NCBI GenBank assembly: GCA_902826885.1
Contig: CADEGL010000016.1
Coordinates: forward strand, 29,312 to 65,378
DNA from: an uncultured Alphaproteobacteria bacterium
GTDB taxonomy: Bacteria; Pseudomonadota; Alphaproteobacteria; CADEGL01
Reading direction: 5' to 3'
DNA length: 36,067 nt
Below, piece after piece: positions 20,661-32,442 of this stretch. Numbering within the stretch: position 1 is the stretch's first letter; each line of letters begins with the position of its first letter. The notes beneath the pieces are model-generated. The model ran no database searches, was not told where the DNA came from, and was given only the letters and a program-made list of their open reading frames with translations. The translations under genes and the position numbers were made by a program.

Positions 20661-23516
20661 TCATTCCGCCGCGCCCAAAGCCACGCTGGCCAGACGGCGC
20701 TGCTCCTCCTGTTCGGCGCGGTAACGTTCCTGCCATTCCGACATATGGTTGACGCGGCGCACCTGCACGGCGGTCACCTTGTACTCGGGGCAGTTGGTCG
20801 CCCAATCGGAATACTCCGTCGTCACGACGTTCACCCCGCTGTCCGCGAAGTGAAAGGTCGTATAGACGACACCCGGCTGCATACGGTCGGTGATGCGCGC
20901 ATGAAGCGTCACTTCGCCCTTCCGGCTGGCAAGACCCACGAGGTCACCTTCGCGGATGCCGCGATGCTCGGCATCGAACGGATGGATATCGAGGAAATCC
21001 TCGCCATGCCAACTGTTGTTGGCCGTGCGGCGTGTCTGCTGCCCCACGTTGTATTGCGAGAGGATTCGGCCGGTGGTGAGCAACAGCGGAAAGCGTTGAG
21101 ACGCGCGTTCTTCGGTCGGAACATATTCCGTGACGACGAACTTGCCCTTCCCGCGCACGAAACCGCCCACATGCATGGTTGGCGTGCCTTCCGGCGCCTT
21201 GTCGTTGCACGGCCACTGGATGCTGCCCAGCTCGTCGATGCGGGCATAGCTGACGCCCGCGAAGGTCGGCGTCACGCGGGCAATCTCGTCCATGATCTCG
21301 GACGGATGCGTGTAAGCCATCGGATAACCGAGCGCGTTGGAAAGCGCCATCGTCGCCTCCCAATCCGCGAGCCCGGCCATGGGCGCGATCGCCTTGCGCA
21401 CGCGGCTGATGCGCCGCTCTGCGTTGGTGAAAGTGCCGTCCTTCTCGAGGAACGACGAGCCCGGTAGGAAGACGTGGGCAAAGTTGGCCGTCTCGTTCAG
21501 GAAAATATCCTGGATCACGACGCATTCCATGGCCCTCAGGCCGGCGGTGACGTGCTGCGTGTCGGGGTCGGACTGGGCGATGTCCTCGCCTTGGATATAG
21601 AGCCCCTTGAAGCTGCCCTCGACGGCCGCATCGAGCATGTTAGGAATGCGCAGGCCCGGCTCCTGCTCCAGAGGCACGCCCCATTCCTTCTCGAACAGCG
21701 CGCGCACCGGCTCTTCCGACACATGCCGATAGCCGGAGAACTCATGCGGGAACGAGCCCATGTCGCACGAACCCTGCACGTTGTTCTGGCCGCGCAGCGG
21801 ATTGATGCCGACGCCGAGCTTGCCGATGTTGCCGGTGGCCATGGCCAGATTGGCCATGCCCATCACCATGGTCGAGCCTTGGCTGTGCTCGGTGACGCCC
21901 AATCCGTAATAGATCGCGCTGTTGCCGCCGGTCGCGTAGAGCCGCGCGACCGCGCGGATATCCTCCGCCGGAACGCCGATTACTTCGGCCAAGCTCTCCG
22001 GCGAATTGCGATCTTCTGACACGAAGGCGCGCCAGCGTTCGAAGTCGGTCTTGTCGCAGCGCTCGGCGACATATTTCTCGTCCACCAGCCCTTCGGTCAC
22101 GACGACGTGAGACAGGGCGTTGATCACCGCCACGTTGGTGCCGGGTTTAAGTTGCAAATGATACTGCGCCTCGACATGCGGCGTGCGCACCAGATCGATG
22201 CGGCGCGGATCGAGCACGATCAGCTTGGCGCCCTCGCGTAGGCGCTTCTTCATGCGCGATGCGAAAACCGGGTGGGCATCGGTCGGATTGGCTCCGATCA
22301 CCATGATGACGTCGGCATCCAAGACCGAGTCGAAATCCTGCGTGCCGGCCGAGGTGCCCAACGTGGTCTTGAGGCCATAACCCGTGGGCGAATGGCAGAC
22401 GCGCGCGCAAGTGTCGACGTTGTTGTTGCCGAAGGCCGCGCGGATCATCTTTTGGACGAGATAGGTTTCCTCGTTCGTGCAGCGCGAGGATGTGATGCCG
22501 CCCACGGAGCCGCGTCCATACTTGGCCTGGATGCGCTTGAACTCGGACGCGGCATGGTTGATGGCTTCCTCCCAGGAAACCTCCTTCCATGGGTCGTGGA
22601 TGCTGGCGCGGACCATGGGCTTGGTGATGCGTTCTTTGTGGGTCGCGTAACCCCAAGCGAACCGCCCCTTGACGCAAGAATGCCCGTGATTCGCCTTGCC
22701 GTCCTTGTGCGGCACCATGCGAACCACTTCGCCGCCCTTCATCTCGGCCTTGAAGGCGCAACCGACGCCGCAATAGGCGCAAGTGGTGATGACGCTGTGC
22801 TCCGGCGTGCCCGCCTCGATCACGCTCTTTTCGTTGAGCGTCGCGGTCGGACAGGCCTGCACGCAGGCACCGCAGGAGACGCATTCGGAATCGAGAAAGT
22901 TCTCGTGCGCGCCGGCCGAGACGGCGGATTCGAAACCGCGCCCCTCGATGGTCAACGCGAAGGTGCCTTGCACCTCCTCGCACGCGCGCACGCAGCGCGA
23001 GCAGACGATGCACTTGGACGGCTCGAAGGTGAAATAAGGATTGGACTCGTCTTTGGCCTTGGCCGGCTTGAAGTGATTCGCGCCGTCGTAGCCATAGCGC
23101 ACCTCGCGCAAACCCACGGCGCCCGCCATGTCCTGCAATTCGCAATCGCCGTTGGCCGAGCACGTTAGGCAGTCCAGCGGGTGATCGGAGATATAGAGTT
23201 CCATCACGTTGCGCCGCAGCCGTGCGACGCGCGGGGTTTGGGTCTTGACCTTCATGCCGGGCTCGACCGGCGTGGTGCAGGACGCGGGTGTGCCCTTGCG
23301 CCCCTCGATCTCCACGAGACACAGGCGACAGGAACCGAATGCCTCCATGCTGTCGGTCGCGCACAGCTTGGGCACGCTGGTGCCCATGGTGGCCGCGGCG
23401 TGCATCACCGAGGTTCCGGCGGGCACCGTGACGCTTTGCCCATCGATTTCCAGCGTGACCATCCGTTCGGAGATTCGCGCCGGCGTGCCGAAATCCTGTT
23501 CGCTCAAGAGGCTCAT
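20661..23516 (-). CDS. fdsA: NAD-dependent formate dehydrogenase alpha (catalytic molybdenum) subunit
   Basis: The 951-residue subunit oxidises formate to CO2. An N-terminal [2Fe-2S] ferredoxin domain (FGSCRLCLVEIEG) is followed by a NuoG-like His/Cys cluster site (DHPLDCLTC) and two 4Fe-4S binding motifs (CIVCSRCVRAC, CVSCGACVQACP). Then comes the molybdopterin oxidoreductase domain with its own cluster (CAYCGVGC). The molybdenum ligand is C374 in RVCHSPTGYG, an ordinary cysteine rather than selenocysteine, with the adjacent catalytic histidine. Length matches FdsA of Cupriavidus/Rhodobacter. The frame is open upstream to 23756, but the ATG at 23516 has GAGGA just before it and follows the fdsB stop by 11 bp. 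Confidence 0.96.
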   Translation of the reverse strand: MSLLSEQDFGTPARISERMVTLEIDGQSVTVPAGTSVMHAAATMGTSVPKLCATDSMEAFGSCRLCLVEIEGRKGTPASCTTPVEPGMKVKTQTPRVARLRRNVMELYISDHPLDCLTCSANGDCELQDMAGAVGLREVRYGYDGANHFKPAKAKDESNPYFTFEPSKCIVCSRCVRACEEVQGTFALTIEGRGFESAVSAGAHENFLDSECVSCGACVQACPTATLNEKSVIEAGTPEHSVITTCAYCGVGCAFKAEMKGGEVVRMVPHKDGKANHGHSCVKGRFAWGYATHKERITKPMVRASIHDPWKEVSWEEAINHAASEFKRIQAKYGRGSVGGITSSRCTNEETYLVQKMIRAAFGNNNVDTCARVCHSPTGYGLKTTLGTSAGTQDFDSVLDADVIMVIGANPTDAHPVFASRMKKRLREGAKLIVLDPRRIDLVRTPHVEAQYHLQLKPGTNVAVINALSHVVVTEGLVDEKYVAERCDKTDFERWRAFVSEDRNSPESLAEVIGVPAEDIRAVARLYATGGNSAIYYGLGVTEHSQGSTMVMGMANLAMATGNIGKLGVGINPLRGQNNVQGSCDMGSFPHEFSGYRHVSEEPVRALFEKEWGVPLEQEPGLRIPNMLDAAVEGSFKGLYIQGEDIAQSDPDTQHVTAGLRAMECVVIQDIFLNETANFAHVFLPGSSFLEKDGTFTNAERRISRVRKAIAPMAGLADWEATMALSNALGYPMAYTHPSEIMDEIARVTPTFAGVSYARIDELGSIQWPCNDKAPEGTPTMHVGGFVRGKGKFVVTEYVPTEERASQRFPLLLTTGRILSQYNVGQQTRRTANNSWHGEDFLDIHPFDAEHRGIREGDLVGLASRKGEVTLHARITDRMQPGVVYTTFHFADSGVNVVTTEYSDWATNCPEYKVTAVQVRRVNHMSEWQERYRAEQEEQRRLASVALGAAE

Positions 23517-23527
23517 CGCGTCCTCAC

Positions 23528-25084
23528 TTACTCCGCCGCCGCGCGCTTGCGCGGCCGGTCGAAGTCTTCGGGAAAATGCGTCAACGCACTCATGACCGGG
23601 TACGGCGTCAACCCGCCCAAGGCGCACAGCGACCCATCCGTCATGGTAGCACAGAGGTCGCCCAGCAATTCGATATTGGCGGCCCGGTCCTCGTCCGCCA
23701 CGATCCGGTCGATCACCTCGACGCCGCGGGTCGAGCCCAGGCGGCACGGCGTGCATTTGCCGCAGGACTCGATGGCGCAGAACTCCATGGCGAAGCGGGC
23801 CTGCTTGGCCAGATCCGCCGTGTCGTCGAAAACCACCACTCCGCCATGGCCAACCATGCCGTTGTTGGCGGCGAAGGCCTCATAATCCATAGATAGGTCG
23901 AGCATCGACGTTGGGAAATAGGCGCCGAGAGGCCCCCCCACCTGGACCGCCCGCACAGGCCGCCCCGTGGCCGTGCCGCCTCCGAAATCCTCGATCAATT
24001 CCCGCAACGTCACGCCAAAGGCTTTTTCCACCAATCCGGCGCGTTTGACATTGCCGGCCAACTGGATGGGCAGCGTCCCGCGCGACCGTCCCATGCCGAA
24101 GTCCCGGTAAAACCCCGCCCCCTTGTCCAGGATGATAGGCACCGAGGCCAGCGAGACGACGTTGTTGATCACCGTGGGCTTGCCGAACAGGCCTTCGATC
24201 GCGGGCAGCGGCGGCTTGAAGCGAACCTCGCCGCGCTTGCCTTCCAGGCTTTCCAGCAACGAGGTCTCCTCGCCGCAGATATAGGCCCCTGCGCCCAGGC
24301 GCAGATGCAGTTCGAACGACCTGCCGTTGCCGCGTATGTTCGAACCAAGATAGCCCGCGTCGCGCGCCACTTTCACCGCCCGCTCCATCTGGGCGAAGGC
24401 ATGCGGATACTCGGAACGGATGTAGAGATAACCCTCGGTCGCGCCGACGGCGAAGCCCGCGATGGCCATGCCCTCGATGAGCATGAAGGGATCGCCCTCC
24501 ATGATCATCCGGTCGGCGTAGGTGCCGCTGTCGCCCTCGTCGGCGTTGCAGACGATATATTTTTGATCCGCCGTCGCGGCCAGCGCGGTGCGCCACTTGA
24601 TGCCGGTCGGGAAGCCCGCGCCGCCACGGCCCCGCAAGCCCGATTCCACCACCGTCTCGACGATTTCCTTCGGCGCCATGGCGAGCGCCTTCTCAAGGCC
24701 CGCGAAACCGCCATGGGCGCGATAATCCTCGATGGACAGGGGATCGATGATGCCGCAGCGGGCGAAAGTCAGACGCTCCTGGCGCTTGAGATAAGGAATC
24801 TCCTCGGTCGGCCCGAGACACAGTTTGTGTTTGCCGCCGGCGAGGAAGTCGGCGTCGAACAGCCCCGCCACATCGTCGGCCGAAACAGGTCCGTAAGCGA
24901 TGCGGCCTGCCTTCGTCTCGACCTCGACCATTGGCTCGAGCCAAAACAATCCGCGCGAACCATTGCGCACCAATGCGATCTTTGCGCCGCGCCGCGCGGT
25001 CTCCCGCGTGATGGCGGCGGCCACCTCTTCCGCGCCGACCGACAGCGCGCTGGCATCGATGGGAACGAAAACGCGCACGCTCAT
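23528..25084 (-). CDS. fdsB: NAD-dependent formate dehydrogenase beta (NADH/FMN) subunit
   Basis: The 518-residue diaphorase subunit passes electrons from formate to NAD. About 110 N-terminal residues form a thioredoxin-like ferredoxin domain lacking the usual cysteines. A NuoF-like FMN/NAD domain follows, with GRGGAGFPTG (FMN loop), CNADEGDSGTYADR, and CGEETSLLESLEGKRGEVR. The C-terminal 4Fe-4S motif is ESCGKCTPCRLGSTRG. The 4-bp overlap with fdsG (ATGA) couples the two genes. The architecture is the same as the NuoEF part of complex I and of bidirectional hydrogenases; fdsA next door identifies it as formate dehydrogenase. Confidence 0.96.
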   Translation of the reverse strand: MSVRVFVPIDASALSVGAEEVAAAITRETARRGAKIALVRNGSRGLFWLEPMVEVETKAGRIAYGPVSADDVAGLFDADFLAGGKHKLCLGPTEEIPYLKRQERLTFARCGIIDPLSIEDYRAHGGFAGLEKALAMAPKEIVETVVESGLRGRGGAGFPTGIKWRTALAATADQKYIVCNADEGDSGTYADRMIMEGDPFMLIEGMAIAGFAVGATEGYLYIRSEYPHAFAQMERAVKVARDAGYLGSNIRGNGRSFELHLRLGAGAYICGEETSLLESLEGKRGEVRFKPPLPAIEGLFGKPTVINNVVSLASVPIILDKGAGFYRDFGMGRSRGTLPIQLAGNVKRAGLVEKAFGVTLRELIEDFGGGTATGRPVRAVQVGGPLGAYFPTSMLDLSMDYEAFAANNGMVGHGGVVVFDDTADLAKQARFAMEFCAIESCGKCTPCRLGSTRGVEVIDRIVADEDRAANIELLGDLCATMTDGSLCALGGLTPYPVMSALTHFPEDFDRPRKRAAAE

Positions 25085-25560
25085 GAACCGCCCACCTTGG
25101 CCTTATGAAGGCGGTCGAATTTCTGCGGTGTCATCTTCCCATACAGGTCGCCATTCCACATCAGCGCGGGCGACAGCGCGCAATTGCCCAGGCAATAGAC
25201 CGGCTCCAAGGTGACCGAACCATCGCCGGCGGTATGCTTGAGAGACGCACCCACCTTTTTCTCGATATGGGCGATCAGCGAATCGCACCCCATGCTCTGG
25301 CAGGATTCCGCGCGGCACACTTTCACCACATGGCGGCCCGGCGGCGCGCCGCGGAAGTCGTGGTAGAAGGTGACCACGCCATGCACCTCGGCGCGCGTCA
25401 GGTTGAGCGCCTCCGCGATCATCGGCACGGCTTCCTTGTCGACATAGCCGAAACGGTCCTGCAGCGCGTGCAAGATCGGGATGACCGCACCCGGCAAGGC
25501 GCGTCGCTCGGCGATAAGCGCCTTGGCAATCTCGGGTTGCCATGGCGTGTGATTCTGCAT
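25081..25560 (-). CDS. fdsG: NAD-dependent formate dehydrogenase gamma (NuoE-like) subunit
   Basis: This 159-residue subunit carries a [2Fe-2S] cluster of the thioredoxin-like NuoE type. The ligands are in CRAESCQSMG and CLGNCALSPA. An N-terminal helical part (PGAVIPILHALQDRFGYVDKEAVPMIAEALN) is typical of NuoE. It is the first gene of the operon, reading into fdsB through an ATGA overlap. In the holoenzyme it sits next to the FMN of FdsB. The upstream AT-rich stretch is the likely promoter region. Confidence 0.95.
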   Translation of the reverse strand: MQNHTPWQPEIAKALIAERRALPGAVIPILHALQDRFGYVDKEAVPMIAEALNLTRAEVHGVVTFYHDFRGAPPGRHVVKVCRAESCQSMGCDSLIAHIEKKVGASLKHTAGDGSVTLEPVYCLGNCALSPALMWNGDLYGKMTPQKFDRLHKAKVGGS

Positions 25561-25696: not shown

Positions 25697-26872
25697 TTAT
25701 GGGCGTTTTGTGAGCCGGCTGGCCAAGGCCCCGAGGGTGCCGCAAATGACGATGATCCCCGCCATGGGCAGCGCGCTGGCGTCGTGGATCGCACCCACCA
25801 ACATGGCCGCGACGGCGGCAAGCGCGAACTGCAACGTGCCGAGCAATGCCGCCGCCGACCCTGCCCGCTCGCCATGCGGGGCCATGGCCATCGCGCTGGC
25901 GTTCGGCAAGATCAGGCCGATACAGGCGATATAACCGAACAAAGCACCCGCCAAGCCGTAAAGACCGCCGGCGCCGGACAGCGCCAGGGCGGCCAGCAGC
26001 ACGCCGAACATCGTCTGCGCCAAATTGGCGGCCCGCAGGATGCGCCCCATCTCGAAGCGGCGCACAAGCCGCGCGTTGATCTGCGCGGCGATCACAAAGC
26101 CCAGCGCGTTCGCGCCGAAGAACCAGCCGTAATCCTCGGGGCTGACGCCATAGAGCTGGATGAATACGAAGGGCGAGCCAGCGATGTAGGCGAACATCCC
26201 GGCCATCGGAAAACCGCCGGTCAGCGCGTAACAGATGTAATCCCGGTGAACGAGCAGGCCGCCATAGCCGCGTAAGATCGCGCCGAGATGGAGCGGTTTG
26301 CGCGCCGCCGCGTGGTGCGATTCGGGCAGGCGTAACGCCATGGCCGCCAGGCAAAAGACACCGAAGAGCGCCAGTGCCCAGAAGATGGCGCGCCAGCCGA
26401 ACGCCGCCATGACGTAGCCGCCGATCAAAGGCGCCAGGATCGGCGCCACGCCCATCACCAGCATCAGAGCGGAGAAGACCCGCGCCATTTCCTTGGGCTC
26501 GAACAGGTCGCGCACCATGGCGCGCGAGCTGACGGCGCCCGCGCACGCGCCTACGGCCTGAATGAAGCGCAGCACGGCCAGCGCTTCGATCGAGGGCGCG
26601 AGGGCGCAGCCTGCCGAGGCCAGAATATAGATCGTCAGGCTGATATAGAGCGGCGGCTTGCGCCCAAAGCGGTCGAGGATGGGGCCGAAGAAGGTCTGCC
26701 CCAGCGCGAAACCCAGGAAGAACACCGCGAGCGTGAGTTGCACGCCCGCCGCATCGGTGGCGAAGGCGCTTTCCAGGGTGGGCAGCGCGGGCAGATACAT
26801 GTCGATCGACAGCGGCGCGAACGCGGTCAGCGCGCCGAGGACGACGATCAATTCAGTCCGTTTGACATTCAT
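25697..26872 (-). CDS. Bcr/CflA-type MFS multidrug exporter
   Basis: The 391-residue protein has about 12 transmembrane segments and the signature of the drug:H+ antiporter-1 group. Landmarks are LIVVLGALTAFAPLSIDMYLPALPTL at the N-terminus, LGFALGQTFFGPILDRFGRKPPL as motif A in loop 2-3, and RFIQAVGACAGAVSSRAMVRDLF as the Bcr/CflA-specific TM4 motif. Members export bicyclomycin, chloramphenicol, sulfonamides or metabolites such as cysteine. It lies 114 bp downstream of the CMD gene on the same strand and may be cotranscribed with it. The substrate is not inferable. Confidence 0.92.
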   Translation of the reverse strand: MNVKRTELIVVLGALTAFAPLSIDMYLPALPTLESAFATDAAGVQLTLAVFFLGFALGQTFFGPILDRFGRKPPLYISLTIYILASAGCALAPSIEALAVLRFIQAVGACAGAVSSRAMVRDLFEPKEMARVFSALMLVMGVAPILAPLIGGYVMAAFGWRAIFWALALFGVFCLAAMALRLPESHHAAARKPLHLGAILRGYGGLLVHRDYICYALTGGFPMAGMFAYIAGSPFVFIQLYGVSPEDYGWFFGANALGFVIAAQINARLVRRFEMGRILRAANLAQTMFGVLLAALALSGAGGLYGLAGALFGYIACIGLILPNASAMAMAPHGERAGSAAALLGTLQFALAAVAAMLVGAIHDASALPMAGIIVICGTLGALASRLTKRP

Positions 26873-26986: not shown

Positions 26987-27445
26987 TCACGCGGCGGCCT
27001 TGGCTTTCGTGACCGGCACCATGCGGAAGCTGATCGCGATCCGGTTCCATGCGTTGATGGCGATCACCGCGAAATTCAGGTCGGCCAACTCCTTTTCCGA
27101 GAAATGCTTGCGTGCCTCCTCGTAGACCTCGTCCGGCACCTGGCCGTCCTTAAGCAGCGTGACCGCCTCCGTCCATGCCATTCCCGCCCGCTCGCGCGCG
27201 GTGAAGATGGGCGCCTCGCGCCACGCGTGCAGAAGATGCATGCGCTCGTCCGTCTCGCCCATCTTGCGGGCGTCGCCCGTGTGCATGGCGATGCAGAACG
27301 CGCATCCGTTGATCTGCGATGTGCGGATCTTGACCAGTTCGATGAGCGAATGCTCCAGGCCGGATTTTTCCACGTAGTTCTGCAGGTCCCGTAGAGCCTG
27401 GTATCCCTCGGGCGCAGTCAGTTTGGCGTTCAGTCTGGCGTTCAC
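26987..27445 (-). CDS. Carboxymuconolactone decarboxylase / AhpD-like protein
   Basis: The 152-residue helical protein has the CMD/AhpD core with the redox pair C-x-x-C plus downstream histidine in NGCAFCIAMHT, about residues 47-57. That pattern points to an AhpD-like peroxidase or disulfide chemistry rather than gamma-carboxymuconolactone decarboxylation. The usual proton-relay helix (ELVKIRTSQ) is present. The start is a GTG with AGGAG 9 nt before it; a three-codon ATG-CCG-TGA frame overlaps it, which may help translational coupling. It sits 25 bp downstream of the cupin gene and faces away from the MocR regulator, so the three probably form one regulated unit. Confidence 0.88.
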   Translation of the reverse strand: MNARLNAKLTAPEGYQALRDLQNYVEKSGLEHSLIELVKIRTSQINGCAFCIAMHTGDARKMGETDERMHLLHAWREAPIFTARERAGMAWTEAVTLLKDGQVPDEVYEEARKHFSEKELADLNFAVIAINAWNRIAISFRMVPVTKAKAAA

Positions 27446-27470
27446 GGCATTTCTCCTCGGTTGATGGGCT

Positions 27471-27956
27471 TCAGTGATAGGTGGTCAGCACAGCACCCTC
27501 GTCGTGGACGATGACCGCCAGGGCTTGCGCAGACTCCGTCGCGCTCATGTTCTCGGCGAACAGATGGGTGATCCCCATGGGTTCGAAGAACGATTCGCCA
27601 GCCTTGTAGACAATGGGCGGGCCGCCCTGGAGCTGGGAGCGGATCGTCCCCGAAAGCACGCGCACGTGGACCGACCCGCCATGATGGTGCGCGGGCGACA
27701 ATCCACCCGGCGGGAAATCGACCAGCACGGTGGTGATCTTCTTGCCTGGCATGCCGGTCAGATCGTCCGACGATTGTGTCGTGACGGCCGGACGCGGGCG
27801 GCCTTCTTGTCCCTGCGCCGCTGCGAGGTGGGATGCGGGCATGGAATGGCCCGTCGGGCGCGATGGCGTGTTCATGGCGCCAATCCAGGCCAGCGCCGCG
27901 CTCGCGGCCAATGCACCAAACCACCCCCATTTGGCCAATCGGCTTCCGTCGACCAT
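27471..27956 (-). CDS. Membrane-anchored or exported cupin-domain protein
   Basis: The ATG at 27956 is preceded by GGGAGATCGGAG and yields 161 residues; upstream in-frame starts run toward the regulator. A hydrophobic N-terminal segment (WGWFGALAASAALAWIGAM) acts as a signal or anchor. A single cupin barrel follows, with motif 1 at about residues 95-112 (HHHGGSVHVRVLSG) supplying three metal-ligand histidines, and motif 2 reduced to GESFFEPMGITHLF. This is a cupin_2-type protein, possibly a metal-dependent dioxygenase or ligand-binding sensor in the periplasm. It leads the cupin-CMD pair. Function is not known. Confidence 0.78.
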   Translation of the reverse strand: MVDGSRLAKWGWFGALAASAALAWIGAMNTPSRPTGHSMPASHLAAAQGQEGRPRPAVTTQSSDDLTGMPGKKITTVLVDFPPGGLSPAHHHGGSVHVRVLSGTIRSQLQGGPPIVYKAGESFFEPMGITHLFAENMSATESAQALAVIVHDEGAVLTTYH

Positions 27957-27978
27957 CTCCGATCTCCCATGACAACTG

Positions 27979-28021
27979 GCCAAGAGATATGCGCCGGTTG
28001 CCATAGTCGATAGTGCCAAGA
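27979..28021. promoter_or_regulatory. Widely spaced direct repeats between cupin and MocR genes
   Basis: GCCAAGA occurs at 27979-27985 and 28015-28021, the same orientation and 36 bp apart start to start, inside the 85-bp divergent spacer. MocR regulators such as GabR bind pairs of short direct repeats separated by roughly three helical turns. These repeats are therefore a reasonable candidate operator for the adjacent MocR protein controlling both directions. Confidence 0.4.
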
Positions 28022-28041
28022 AATGTTTAAATGACTAGGCC

Positions 28042-29478
28042 ATGCGCGAATCGCGTTCTCTCTTCGCATTGACCCCGGACCCGGCCGGCAATCAGCCGGC
28101 CTACCGCCAGATCTATCAGCGCTTGAAGGACGCCATCTTGTCGGGCCGCCTCGCGCCCGGCGCACGCCTGCCCTCGGCGCGCGGCTTGGCGGCGGAGTTG
28201 CAACTCGCCCGTGGCACCGTCGAGGCGGCCTATCAGCTGCTTTCGAGTGAAGGCTATGCCGTGGGGCGCGGCCCGGCGGGGACGGTCGTTAATCCCTCCC
28301 TCAGCCCCCGGCCGTCCGGCATGCCCGTTCCGCGCACGCCCACCCTGCGCACCGGGCCGGGGATTCCCGGCCCCGAGGTCGAGACCGTGCCGCCCTTGTT
28401 CCGCATGGGGTTGCCGGCGCTGGACGCTTTCCCACGCAAGACATGGTCGCGTCTGGCCGCCCGCTGCGCGCGTTCGGTGTCGGCACCGGGCTTGGCTTAT
28501 CCGCATCCCTCGGGCCGGAGCACCCTGCGCCACGCCATCGCGGCGCACCTGAACGTCGCGCGCGGAATCGTCTGCGCCCCCGAACAGGTGTTCATCACCG
28601 CCGGCTATCAGGGCGCGCTGGGGCTCGTCACCCACCTCTTGTTGACGCCAGGCGACGCGGTGTGGCTCGAAGAGCCCGGCTATTTCTTCGCGCGCGACGC
28701 CTTCACGCTCGCGGGCGCCAAATTGGTCCCGGTTCCCGTGGACAAGGACGGCATTGACGTCGACGCCGGCCTGCGCCGGGCGAAAGGCGCGCGCTTCGCG
28801 GTGGTGACACCGTCGCACCAGTTCCCGACCGGCGCCGCGCTTTCGCTTTCACGCCGCCTCGCGCTGCTCAAATGGGCGGCCATGGAAGGCGCCTGGATCA
28901 TCGAGGACGATTACGACGGCGAGCTGCGCTACCGTGGCCGTCCCTTGCCCGCGCTGAAGAGCCTCGACAAGGCCGGGCGGGTCATCCACGCGGGTACCTT
29001 CAGCAAGGTCCTGTTCCCCGGCTTGCGCACCGGCTATCTGGTGGTGCCCGATTCGCTCGTGGAGCGCTTCGCGCGCGCGGCCGCCCTGCTTCACCCCGCG
29101 CCGTCCCATCTCGACCAGGCGACCATCGCCGCCTTCATGGCGGAGGGACACTTCGCGCGCCACATCAAGCGGATGCGCCAGCTCTATCAGTCGCGGCGGG
29201 ATGCGCTGGCCGAGGCGCTGGAGCGCACGCTCGGGGACACGCTGGTCACACAGCCGCCGGTCGGCGGCATGCATTTCTTGGCGCGACTGCCCACGGGTAC
29301 CGACGACAGCGCTCTCGCCGCACGCGCCGCCGCCCGGGGTCTGGCACCGGAACCCCTCTCGCGCAGCTTCGTCCAGCGTCCGGCCACATCCGGCCTTCTG
29401 CTCGGCTTCACCAACATTCCCGAAGACGCCGCCCTTGCCGCCGCGCGCCGGCTGAAGGGCGTCATAGAGCTTCGTTAA
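28042..29478 (+). CDS. MocR-family transcriptional regulator (GntR HTH fused to class I aminotransferase)
   Basis: This 478-residue protein joins a winged-helix GntR domain (about residues 15-85: YRQIYQRLKDAILSGRLAPGARLPSARGLAAELQLARGTVEAAYQLL) to a fold-type I aminotransferase domain (about 125-475). The PLP-binding lysine is K322 in GTFSKVLFPGLRTGYL, and the pyridine-N aspartate is in IIEDDYDGELRY. Such proteins sense amino acids, GABA, taurine or PLP itself through the aminotransferase part. It is divergent from the cupin-CMD pair, the usual arrangement for a MocR protein and its target. No pdxST genes lie nearby, so a PdxR role is not indicated. Its stop overlaps the dioxygenase stop (TTAA). 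Confidence 0.93.
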   Translation: MRESRSLFALTPDPAGNQPAYRQIYQRLKDAILSGRLAPGARLPSARGLAAELQLARGTVEAAYQLLSSEGYAVGRGPAGTVVNPSLSPRPSGMPVPRTPTLRTGPGIPGPEVETVPPLFRMGLPALDAFPRKTWSRLAARCARSVSAPGLAYPHPSGRSTLRHAIAAHLNVARGIVCAPEQVFITAGYQGALGLVTHLLLTPGDAVWLEEPGYFFARDAFTLAGAKLVPVPVDKDGIDVDAGLRRAKGARFAVVTPSHQFPTGAALSLSRRLALLKWAAMEGAWIIEDDYDGELRYRGRPLPALKSLDKAGRVIHAGTFSKVLFPGLRTGYLVVPDSLVERFARAAALLHPAPSHLDQATIAAFMAEGHFARHIKRMRQLYQSRRDALAEALERTLGDTLVTQPPVGGMHFLARLPTGTDDSALAARAAARGLAPEPLSRSFVQRPATSGLLLGFTNIPEDAALAAARRLKGVIELR

Positions 29479-30044
29479 GCGGCCGCGACGACGAAATCGA
29501 AGCCGCCCGAAGCGGCATCCGGCGATAGCGCGAGCAGAAGCTCCTTCCGGAACAGCCCATCGCGGACATTGCCCGGCTCACCGGGAAAATAGAGCTGCGT
29601 GGTCAACACGGGACCCGCGGCCGCCTGGACCTTGACGTGGAAATGGCGCGTGCGGCCGACATAGGGCGCGGGCGCGACCGTCTCGAAGCGGTAACGGCCG
29701 GCAGCATCGGTGTATTGGTGGCCGCGCAAACGATATCCGGCGTTGTCGTAACGCCCCTGCCCGTCCGCGTGCCAAAGATCGACCAGCGCGCCCTTCACCG
29801 GACGGCATGCGGAATCCAGCACCAGGCCCGCCAGCACGATTTTCGTCCCCGAAACGCCGGGGTCGAGCAACACCGAACGTTCCGGCGAATCGGGCCTGAA
29901 ATACGGCCCCTCGGTCAGATTCGGCGTGAACGCGCCCGGAGTGCAGGCGGGTGCTTGCGCGAAGGCGCGCGCGGAACCCAGCGCGGCGGCGGCCACGGCC
30001 GAGGTCAGCACCGTACGCCTGGTCAATCCACGCCCGCAGATCAC
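29475..30044 (-). CDS. Tat-exported intradiol dioxygenase-like protein
   Basis: A GTG at 30044, with GGGGA before it, gives 189 residues; the longer open frame upstream overlaps the isomerase gene and lacks homology. Residues 1-31 form a Tat leader (LTRRTVLTSAV, with R9/R10). The mature part is a compact intradiol fold with candidate iron ligands Y99 (GRYDN), Y128 (APYVGR), H134 and H136 (TRHFH). The spacing Y-G-R-T-R-H-x-H matches the exported intradiol group rather than cytoplasmic catechol 1,2-dioxygenases. The expected reaction is ortho ring cleavage of a catechol-like compound outside the cytoplasm. Substrate is unknown. Confidence 0.82.
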   Translation of the reverse strand: MICGRGLTRRTVLTSAVAAAALGSARAFAQAPACTPGAFTPNLTEGPYFRPDSPERSVLLDPGVSGTKIVLAGLVLDSACRPVKGALVDLWHADGQGRYDNAGYRLRGHQYTDAAGRYRFETVAPAPYVGRTRHFHVKVQAAAGPVLTTQLYFPGEPGNVRDGLFRKELLLALSPDAASGGFDFVVAAA

Positions 30045-30145
30045 GATGTCATGTTCCCCACAACTTAAAGGCGGATGACAATGCCCGTGCGCCGGTCTCC
30101 TCGAACGGATGGTGTGCCGCAAAGTTCCATCACGCCCTTCCCTAC

Positions 30146-30802
30146 CTACCGGCGCGGCTTGAGGCCGCGTTGTTTCATGCGCCAGACCAAGAGATCGATC
30201 CGGTCCTGGCCGAAGAACGGCTCGCCCGCGAACACCATGGTCGGGGTGCCCCAGTGGCCTGCCGCCTCCAACGCGCGTCCATTCTCCGCGATGATCGCGT
30301 CGCAACCGGCGGAATCGCGCGCCACGGCGCGATCGATCTCGGCCAGATCGAAGCCGGCCGCATCGAGCGCGCGTGCCAGGCGATCGCCCTTGTCCCAACC
30401 TCGCCCGTCCTCGTCAAAGATCAGGCGCGAGACCGCCCGGGCGAACGCGAGACCCCGGCCGCGCCGCGCCGCCTCCACGCCCAAGCGTGTCAGCCGGAAG
30501 ATATGGGGTTGCTCCGGCTTGGCCTTGCCCGTCGCCGGGTCCATGGCCACGGGATCGGGGTCGGCATCCGGCCCGATGAGGCCTTCGCCGAGATATTCCG
30601 CGACCCGCATCACATCGCGCTCGAAATAGGCGCCGTAGGGCTTCGGGAGCGAGGGCATGTAATCGGGATAGCGGAAGACGAGCGGCATCACCGGCCGCAA
30701 GGCGATGGTCACATCGTGCGTCTCGGCCAGCCGGACGAGACGCGGACCGGCCAGATAGCAGTACGGGCTGCGGAACGACCAGAACAGATCGACGTGAGGC
30801 AT
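30146..30802 (-). CDS. 2-hydroxychromene-2-carboxylate isomerase / DsbA-family (GST kappa) protein
   Basis: The 218-residue protein has the thioredoxin-plus-helical-insert fold of HCCA isomerase and GST kappa. The active-site serine region is FWSFRSPYCYL near the N-terminus, where DsbA would have CxxC. The C-terminal thioredoxin part ends with GHWGTPTMVFAGEPFFGQDRIDLL, very typical of the family. HCCA isomerase acts with glutathione in naphthalene-type degradation, but many relatives have other roles. I prefer the ATG at 30802, 10 nt after a GGGAGAGG site, over the in-frame GTG at 30811. It lies upstream of the dioxygenase on the same strand (101-bp gap), so both may handle one aromatic compound. 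Confidence 0.85.
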   Translation of the reverse strand: MPHVDLFWSFRSPYCYLAGPRLVRLAETHDVTIALRPVMPLVFRYPDYMPSLPKPYGAYFERDVMRVAEYLGEGLIGPDADPDPVAMDPATGKAKPEQPHIFRLTRLGVEAARRGRGLAFARAVSRLIFDEDGRGWDKGDRLARALDAAGFDLAEIDRAVARDSAGCDAIIAENGRALEAAGHWGTPTMVFAGEPFFGQDRIDLLVWRMKQRGLKPRR

Positions 30803-30830
30803 CGTCGTCACCTCTCCCTAGGCCGAAAAC

Positions 30831-31305: not shown

Positions 31306-32442
31306 ATGACCAAGGCGTCCGCCGGACAGGTGCGCGTGACGGGGCTCGAAGCCCGGCTGATCGCGACCGGCATCAAGATGAAGCGCTCTCAAGGCATCGG
31401 CAGCGTGCAGGGCAAGGTGAAGCGCATCCTGCTGCGCCTCCGGACCGACGCGGGCGTCGAAGGCATCGGCGAGGCCGCGCCGTGGGAGGTGTTCTCCGGC
31501 ACCGCGGAAGCCGCGCTGGCGGCGCTCGATCTTTATTTGCGCCCCATCGTCGTCGGCGCCGATCCGCGCCGCATCCAGTCGATCATGGCGGCTTGCGACC
31601 GCGCGCTCTACGACAATTTCGAGGCCAAGGCCGCGGTCGAGATGGCGCTGTTCGACATCTGCGGCAAGCTGACCGGCCTGCCCGTCTCCGGCCTCCTGGG
31701 CGGCGCCGTGCGCGACCGCATCCCCATGAGTTTCTCCATCGCCAACCCGGACATCGACGCCGACGTAGCCATGGCCAAGCGCCTGCATGGCGAGGGCGTG
31801 CGCATCTTCAAGGTGAAAACGGGCTTCTCCGATCACGCCAACGACCTGCGGCGGCTGACCAAGCTGCGCAAGGAATTGCCGGACGATATCGACTTGCGCG
31901 TCGACTATAACCAGGGCCTGCAATCCTGGGACGCGTTGCCCAAGCTGCGCGAGATCGAGCAGTTCAAGCCGACCTTCATCGAACAGCCCGTGCCGCGCCC
32001 GCAGCTCGACGTGATGGCGGCGCTGACCGCCGCGCTCGATACGCCCATCATGGCCGACGAGGCCGTCTTCTCTCCCGCCGAGGCGCTGCGCCTGGTCGAG
32101 AAACGCGCGGCCGACATCGTCTCGGTCAAGCTGATGAAATCCGGCGGCATCCTGAACGCGCGCAAGATCAACGCGATCTGCGAGACGGCCGGCATCCCCT
32201 GCTATGGCGGCACGCTGTGGGAGGGCGGCGTGGCGCTGGCCGCCGGCACGCATTTCATCGCGGCCACGGCCAACATGTCGCTGGGCTGCGAGTTCTACAT
32301 GCCGAAATTCGTGCTGGAGGAAGACGTGCTGACCGAGATCGTGCCGATCGAGGACGGCCACGTCATCGTCCCGAAAGGGCCTGGCCTCGGCGTCACGCTG
32401 AACGAAGACGCGGTCGAGCGGCTGACGGTCGAGAAGCGCTAA
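31306..32442 (+). CDS. Muconate cycloisomerase / mandelate racemase superfamily enzyme (MLE subgroup)
   Basis: The 378-residue enolase-superfamily enzyme has a capping domain (about residues 1-130) and a TIM-barrel. The K-x-K general base is IFKVKTGF. The three Mg ligands appear in RVDYNQGL, FIEQPVP and MADEAVF, and the second lysine lies in VSVKLMKSGG. The two-lysine arrangement is that of the MLE subgroup (muconate or chloromuconate cycloisomerase, o-succinylbenzoate synthase, dipeptide epimerase). The nearby intradiol dioxygenase makes a muconate-type substrate attractive, but that enzyme is exported while this one is cytoplasmic. A dipeptide epimerase or N-succinylamino-acid racemase remains possible. 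No other cat genes are in the window. Confidence 0.87.
   Translation: MTKASAGQVRVTGLEARLIATGIKMKRSQGIGSVQGKVKRILLRLRTDAGVEGIGEAAPWEVFSGTAEAALAALDLYLRPIVVGADPRRIQSIMAACDRALYDNFEAKAAVEMALFDICGKLTGLPVSGLLGGAVRDRIPMSFSIANPDIDADVAMAKRLHGEGVRIFKVKTGFSDHANDLRRLTKLRKELPDDIDLRVDYNQGLQSWDALPKLREIEQFKPTFIEQPVPRPQLDVMAALTAALDTPIMADEAVFSPAEALRLVEKRAADIVSVKLMKSGGILNARKINAICETAGIPCYGGTLWEGGVALAAGTHFIAATANMSLGCEFYMPKFVLEEDVLTEIVPIEDGHVIVPKGPGLGVTLNEDAVERLTVEKR

Follow-up and report, generated by a model that had tools for sequence, protein, structure and literature searches.

Which genes does a MocR-type regulator govern when it is encoded back to back with a cupin and an AhpD-like protein of the CMD family? 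The question is raised by the 36,067-nucleotide stretch of alphaproteobacterial DNA analysed here (the window), in which Pfam and NCBIfam models upheld the positions and domains that a first-pass annotation had given for three genes. The regulator lies on the + strand (28042..29478), while the − strand carries a gene for a 161-aa, probably membrane-anchored 3-His cupin (27471..27956) and a gene for a 152-aa CxxC protein (26987..27445) that begins 25 nt past the cupin gene. The cupin open reading frame (27471–28019, −) reaches back to a TTG at 28019, but the ATG at 27956, which comes after GGGAGATCGGAG, is the more likely start, because a start at the TTG would fall within the operator predicted below. 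With this ATG the gap between the cupin and MocR genes is 85 nt; a scan of 27850–28150, which includes the gap, found no sigma-70-like promoter.

The arrangement recalls the GabR, TauR and PdxR divergons, in which, as here, a winged helix-turn-helix (wHTH) fused to an aminotransferase-like domain with a PLP lysine is encoded opposite its target. Whereas those targets are B6, GABA, taurine or ectoine genes, the candidate targets here encode an AhpD-like CMD protein, a cupin and other redox proteins, in keeping with the earlier remark that they are neither vitamin B6 nor GABA/taurine genes. The regulator has the domain composition of the MocR subfamily, an N-terminal GntR wHTH and a C-terminal fold-type-I aminotransferase domain (Aminotran_1_2, Pfam). 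Its K322, together with D290 and Y291 in the putative PLP site, aligns with K312 of GabR, which we take to be the PLP-binding lysine of that protein, and a lysine occupies this position in 100/100 rows of the alignment. The regulator also passes the NCBIfam PdxR model NF052282 (434.1 bits, cut-off 320), and it could be a true PdxR that senses the PLP level, with the cupin and CMD protein serving B6 metabolism or shielding PLP enzymes. GNAT acetyltransferases, frequent beside its relatives, are reported to belong to PdxR as well as PdxW regulons, the latter of which also include an OsmC peroxiredoxin (PMC5320631; papers given by PMC number are cited from excerpts of their text). However, the rhizopine MocR model scores similarly (438.6 bits, under its own cut-off of 650), so that the PdxR model may be broad, and no B6 gene was present among 10 annotated neighbour representatives or the features of three annotated records, which makes this reading unlikely.

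The first-pass annotation had staked its proposal on the linkage being conserved in other genomes, and it is. When one genome per species was scanned and the best 80 of 585 confirmed MocR relatives were examined, 61 of these 80 loci proved to have a CMD homologue: 47 are divergent, 9 follow MocR in tandem and 5 lie downstream but on the opposite strand; the CMD–MocR distance was within 300 bp in 36 cases and within 2.5 kb in 60 of the 61. The genome of the window has five CMD-family matches in 3.87 Mb, and an estimated 1% or so of 11-kb stretches would be expected to hold one, so that linkage in 61 of the best 80 is far above chance. Three other MocR paralogues, two from the same genome and one from a congener, have no adjoining CMD or cupin gene. 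Further neighbours, for which each cluster was annotated through one representative, were flavodoxin_2 quinone-reductase-like proteins (38 of the best 80 loci), GNAT acetyltransferases (18), SMR efflux proteins (9) and NmrA-like proteins (6). NrdI and glutaredoxin neighbours in enterobacteria were set aside, since they look like an adjacent nrd operon. The cupin of the window, used as a query, matched only two of the best 80 loci. One of the two is L072, where cupin and CMD adjoin a sigma-factor-like gene and MocR is encoded about 3 kb away; the cupin is thus a minority partner.

These neighbours also bear on the idea that the locus is an amine- or amino-acid-sensing divergon whose cupin and CMD protein act on a catabolic intermediate, by comparison with TauR. 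Control of a COG2128 alkylhydroperoxidase by TauR has been predicted in some Rhodobacterales (PMC5320631), the regulator has a GabR-type fold, and adjacent window genes (Dioxygenase_C and muconate-cycloisomerase-like, described below) look catabolic. Yet the Dioxygenase_C query matched none of the best 80 of 585 MocR loci, and the 10 annotated neighbour representatives include no aminotransferase or amine-uptake gene. The equivalent of GabR R430, R441, occurs in just 14/100 relatives and lies in a poorly aligned stretch, and a GabR-like carboxylate-binding arginine was therefore dropped as a ligand clue. This reading is accordingly improbable.

The linkage looks different from the side of the cupin. 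Overlapping sets of 385 class and 398 phylum genomes were searched, and 60 cupin loci were taken from them, comprising every non-window match at E ≤6.8e-16 and five slightly weaker class matches, several from shared genera. Of these loci, 27 have a CMD gene no more than 2.5 kb away and 16 a MocR gene no more than 4.5 kb away; 7 have both. The order is MocR–cupin–CMD in L148, L151 and L152 and MocR–CMD–cupin in L149, L150 and L156, and in L164 the MocR gene and the cupin–CMD pair share a strand. Plasmid NZ_CP102847.1 of Microvirga terrae also carries the trio, its MocR gene lying about 2 kb downstream, and two Variovorax plasmids have MocR and cupin genes without a CMD match; the cupin is absent from all four other searched genomes of the window's family. 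Twenty of the 27 cupin–CMD pairs have no MocR gene within 4.5 kb and only two of those 20 have the operator described below, which suggests that the pair is often under another regulator. CMD and cupin genes lie near a sigma-factor-like gene in L072 (8035-10227) and L157 (4353-7327), and the pair appears to switch regulators.

The gap between the MocR and cupin genes holds a predicted 45-bp MocR operator, GCCATAGTCGATAGTGCCAAGAAATGTTTAAATGACTAGGCCATG (28000..28044, +), which was recognized as a sequence motif and overlaps the MocR start codon. In our own division it consists of box 1 (28000..28005, −; consensus GgCctA), inverted relative to box 3, box 2 (28012..28018, +; AGTGCCA, consensus AGggCCA) and box 3 (28036..28042, +; TAGGCCA), and its overall consensus is GgCctAnnnnanAGggCCAagAAntgnntaaatgAcTAGGcCATg. 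MocR regulators characteristically have operators made up of repeated boxes between the divergent genes, and by its sequence the window has one, to which binding is predicted. The gap resembles regions upstream of MocR genes of Azoarcus, Comamonas and Pseudomonas. A first 45-bp motif was seeded from Pseudomonas saxonica (L020), chosen as the best match to the window, and trained on 62 of 91 upstream regions, the window excluded. Judged against plain shuffles, the window scored 48.8 bits at 28000–28044 (best of 1820 shuffles, 7.4; next-best site in the whole window, 4.1), and 64 of the 91 regions, mostly training members, exceeded the shuffle maximum, while 27 did not.

A second motif, derived de novo from half of the regions with the best seed from the 45-mers of 14 random regions, the window again excluded, was seeded in L025, was joined by 31 of 45 regions and had the same pattern and register as the first. 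In the held-out half, 31 of 46 regions beat the best of 920 dinucleotide shuffles, which reached 9.7; the operator of the window scored 47.8 bits against 2.4 for the best of 500 shuffles of its own region. With the rows aligned on the site, column likeness was 0.56 within it versus 0.32 in the 60 nt upstream. Nine MocR loci left out of the 91-region set (L149, L152, L164, L167, L178, L179, L187, L213 and L214) were scanned separately with the first motif. This motif gave a site above 9 bits in 17 of 67 cupin loci and in 15 of the 19 with MocR; four loci with MocR and cupin (L152, L175, L207 and L209) had no site above 9 bits, and L148, L151 and L156 have a diverged operator of 13–26 bits.

A gene-blind search with the 33-base operator core (≤3 mismatches, the reversed pattern serving as control) found one match in the window's own genome, that in the window. 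Matches occurred in 6 of 385 class genomes (reversed pattern, 0) and in 7 of 396 phylum genomes, a set that overlaps the former (reversed pattern, 1). There are 13 distinct core sites, the window's included, and 11 of them lie beside CMD and/or cupin genes; one site, in G091, had belonged to the training set. The twelfth (G607) is beside flavodoxin and GNAT genes at a MocR end, and the thirteenth (G220) is by an unrelated epimerase gene. G607 has two operator sites (C12, 177643 and 180238; L271 and L277) at a distance of 2.6 kb. MocR and CMD flank one of them and the other lies by the flavodoxin/GNAT pair across the MocR gene, an arrangement suggestive of one regulator serving two operons. The sites in G356 and G029 are at cupin–CMD pairs without an adjoining MocR gene, and the operator thus accompanies the targets as well as the regulator gene; a regulator acting at a distance, or one since lost, would explain them. 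At the G029 pair (C68; L160:1412-1456) the operator scores 48.1 bits, and G160, of the same genus, has MocR.

Operators at cupin–CMD pairs that lack MocR argue against the view that the regulator controls itself alone and that the pair is a frequent neighbour under its own control, for instance by ECF sigma factors. So does the divergent layout, kept across gene orders and partner sets in 47 of 61 CMD-holding loci (best 80 of 585). The view draws on the ECF41 factors, whose sole detectable targets are CMD-type genes (PMC3426412), on the sigma-factor-like genes beside CMD and cupin in L072 (judged by eye) and L157 (by similarity to L072), and on a Roseomonas CMD gene that adjoins an annotated sigma factor; we consider it very improbable. 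From the conserved divergon and the conserved operator, MocR very probably controls the divergent cupin–CMD operon, as the first-pass annotation had supposed on general grounds for regulators of this kind.

In a tree of 100 MocR rows, built by a quick method with SH-aLRT support (strong level of the tool, 95), 87 rows fall on one side of a strongly supported branch (99). They include 59 of 60 CMD-linked rows and 9 of 9 rows with the MocR–cupin–CMD trio, but also 9 of 19 rows without a CMD or cupin partner. The CMD label requires 11 changes on the tree versus a shuffled mean of 31.5. At a support of 80, below the strong level, the window MocR shares a group with the MocRs of six other trios, with three that are linked to a cupin and with one linked to CMD. 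The trio label requires 7 changes versus a shuffled mean of 8.8, a value equally low in 11 of 500 shuffles, from which it appears that the trio was gained or lost several times.

What might the two divergent genes do? The protein of 26987–27445 matches CMD (PF02627, 76.3 bits) and the ahpD_dom core domain (Pfam, NCBIfam), and it has a Glu, a CxxC and a His at AhpD spacing (E36-x11-C48-x2-C51-x3-H55). This exact pattern recurs in 36 of the 62 CMD open reading frames found at MocR loci and in 17 of the 30 from the cupin set, and in several of the others Asp replaces Glu. An identity as gamma-carboxymuconolactone decarboxylase (PcaC), which is without the CxxC motif (PMC3141380), was rejected, since the window protein has one. 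The closest structure is that of PA0269 (2O4D); PA0269 (2O4D, 2IJC) and Atu0492 (2GMY) align over nearly the full length (E 4e-45 to 8e-43), with the CxxC kept in the alignment to PA0269. Weak Cys-dependent peroxidase activity is reported for PA0269, and, unlike for the window protein, neither a cupin partner nor MocR control is mentioned in the excerpts of that paper (PMC3141380). Other AhpD-like proteins protect Pseudomonas aeruginosa against HOCl/HOSCN (RclX; PMC7950407) or a Pseudomonas against allicin (PMC7119367), and hypochlorite elicits a response from two CMD genes in B. cenocepacia (PMC2830190). All of these data concern relatives of the window protein. We infer the cupin and CMD protein to be a detoxification pair.

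The cupin (Cupin_2, PF07883, 45.2 bits) is without the Glu of motif 1 that is usual in cupins; three His (H111, H113, H152), the predicted metal ligands, and E146 are invariant in 68/68 rows, the window included. In a model of the 161-aa form (mean pLDDT 79.2), residues 4–28 form a helix of low confidence (pLDDT about 51–56), followed by a disordered linker and a high-confidence beta barrel. The N-terminal membrane segment of the first-pass annotation is thus matched by a modelled helix, and from its hydrophobic residues a membrane-spanning role is plausible but not firm at this pLDDT; judged by eye, many relatives open with a signal-peptide-like or anchor-like stretch. Arg and Lys ahead of the helix suggest that the barrel would face the periplasm. 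The nearest folds found by Foldseek were the small cupins BP2299 and TM1459 and the Mn hydroxynitrile lyase 4BIF (best E 3e-6 to 5e-6), matches which, at an identity of only 17–23%, assign no function, and a PDB sequence search with the cupin gave only weak germin matches.

The genes, the linkage kept across genomes and the conserved operator, associated with CMD and cupin genes, are the basis of a model in which PLP-loaded MocR (K322) would bind the three-box, 45-bp operator in the 85-nt gap. It would probably repress its own gene, because the operator covers the MocR start codon, and on arrival of a ligand it would probably activate the divergent operon. One product, AhpD-like and with a CxxC, would work in the cytosol as a thiol peroxidase or as a disulfide reductase; the other, the 3-His metal cupin, would be anchored at the outer face of the inner membrane, and both would act against oxidants or electrophiles. 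We give this reading, a MocR divergon with autorepression and ligand-dependent activation of a cupin–CMD detoxification operon, a probability of roughly 65%. The frequent acetyltransferase and SMR efflux neighbours invite the speculation that the ligand is a toxic amine. A more far-reaching proposal, which we put forward only tentatively, is that a Proteobacteria-wide MocR group with its own operator, GgCctAnnnnanAGggCCAagAAntgnntaaatgAcTAGGcCATg, runs a detoxification set split over two compartments: an AhpD-like thiol enzyme would work inside the cell, joined in some lineages by a 3-His metal cupin on the outside. PLP would then be the chemical sensor, responding for example to an amine that is toxic or to a reactive molecule attacking the PLP aldimine.

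RclR of Pseudomonas aeruginosa is a regulator of the AraC type and not a MocR. Like the MocR gene here, its gene adjoins an AhpD-like gene, rclX; both proteins give protection from HOCl and HOSCN, and the excerpts mention no cupin for this pair (PMC7950407). ECF41 systems likewise place a dedicated regulator by a CMD-type redox gene, accompanied in four instances by a cupin (PMC3426412), but that regulator is a sigma factor and the one here a predicted PLP-binding repressor/activator. No sigma factor was found among the eight window proteins scanned and the neighbour of the CMD gene is MocR, so that the locus falls outside the ECF41–CMD systems. MocR regulons with redox genes have been predicted, and 38 of 86 orthologous MocR groups were given a tentative role, the remainder none (PMC5320631). 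Among the papers listed in our search of the open-licence literature, none treats MocR, cupin and carboxymuconolactone decarboxylase together, and excerpts of PMC6677901, PMC4944035, PMC13295329, PMC9676059, PMC3626644 and PMC11481915 contain nothing on such a module; the group may be listed in the supplementary tables of PMC5320631 or in RegPrecise. The conserved operator marks one large MocR group tied to AhpD-like and cupin genes and makes its regulon testable. If the model is true, a coenzyme-based sensor would command a stress response, and the locus would offer an inroad into the poorly understood AhpD-like CMD proteins and small exported cupins.

The Bcr/CflA MFS protein encoded at 25697–26872 (−; NCBIfam 340.3 bits, cut-off 200.9) had been suggested as a further member of the module. 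Its query matched 6 of the best 80 of 585 MocR loci at E 1e-3, and at E 1e-8 an MFS gene was present in one of 30 scanned CMD-holding loci (L150, about 3 kb away on the other strand); the exporter was therefore rejected as a part of the module. Past the MocR gene comes a gene for a Dioxygenase_C, intradiol dioxygenase-like protein (29475–30047, −). The two genes meet tail to tail, with an overlap of 4 nt at the MocR stop, and the TRRTVL of the Dioxygenase_C product is presumably part of a Tat signal. Also near the module is a gene for a DsbA-family protein (30146–30811, −); DsbA and AhpD were found together in Pseudomonas allicin-resistance clones (PMC7119367). A muconate-cycloisomerase-like protein of the enolase superfamily (281.8 bits, under the NCBIfam cut-off of 334.95) is encoded at 31306–32442 (+), and three consecutive large open reading frames at 20661–25560 (−), their translations judged by eye, resemble an NAD-linked formate dehydrogenase set.
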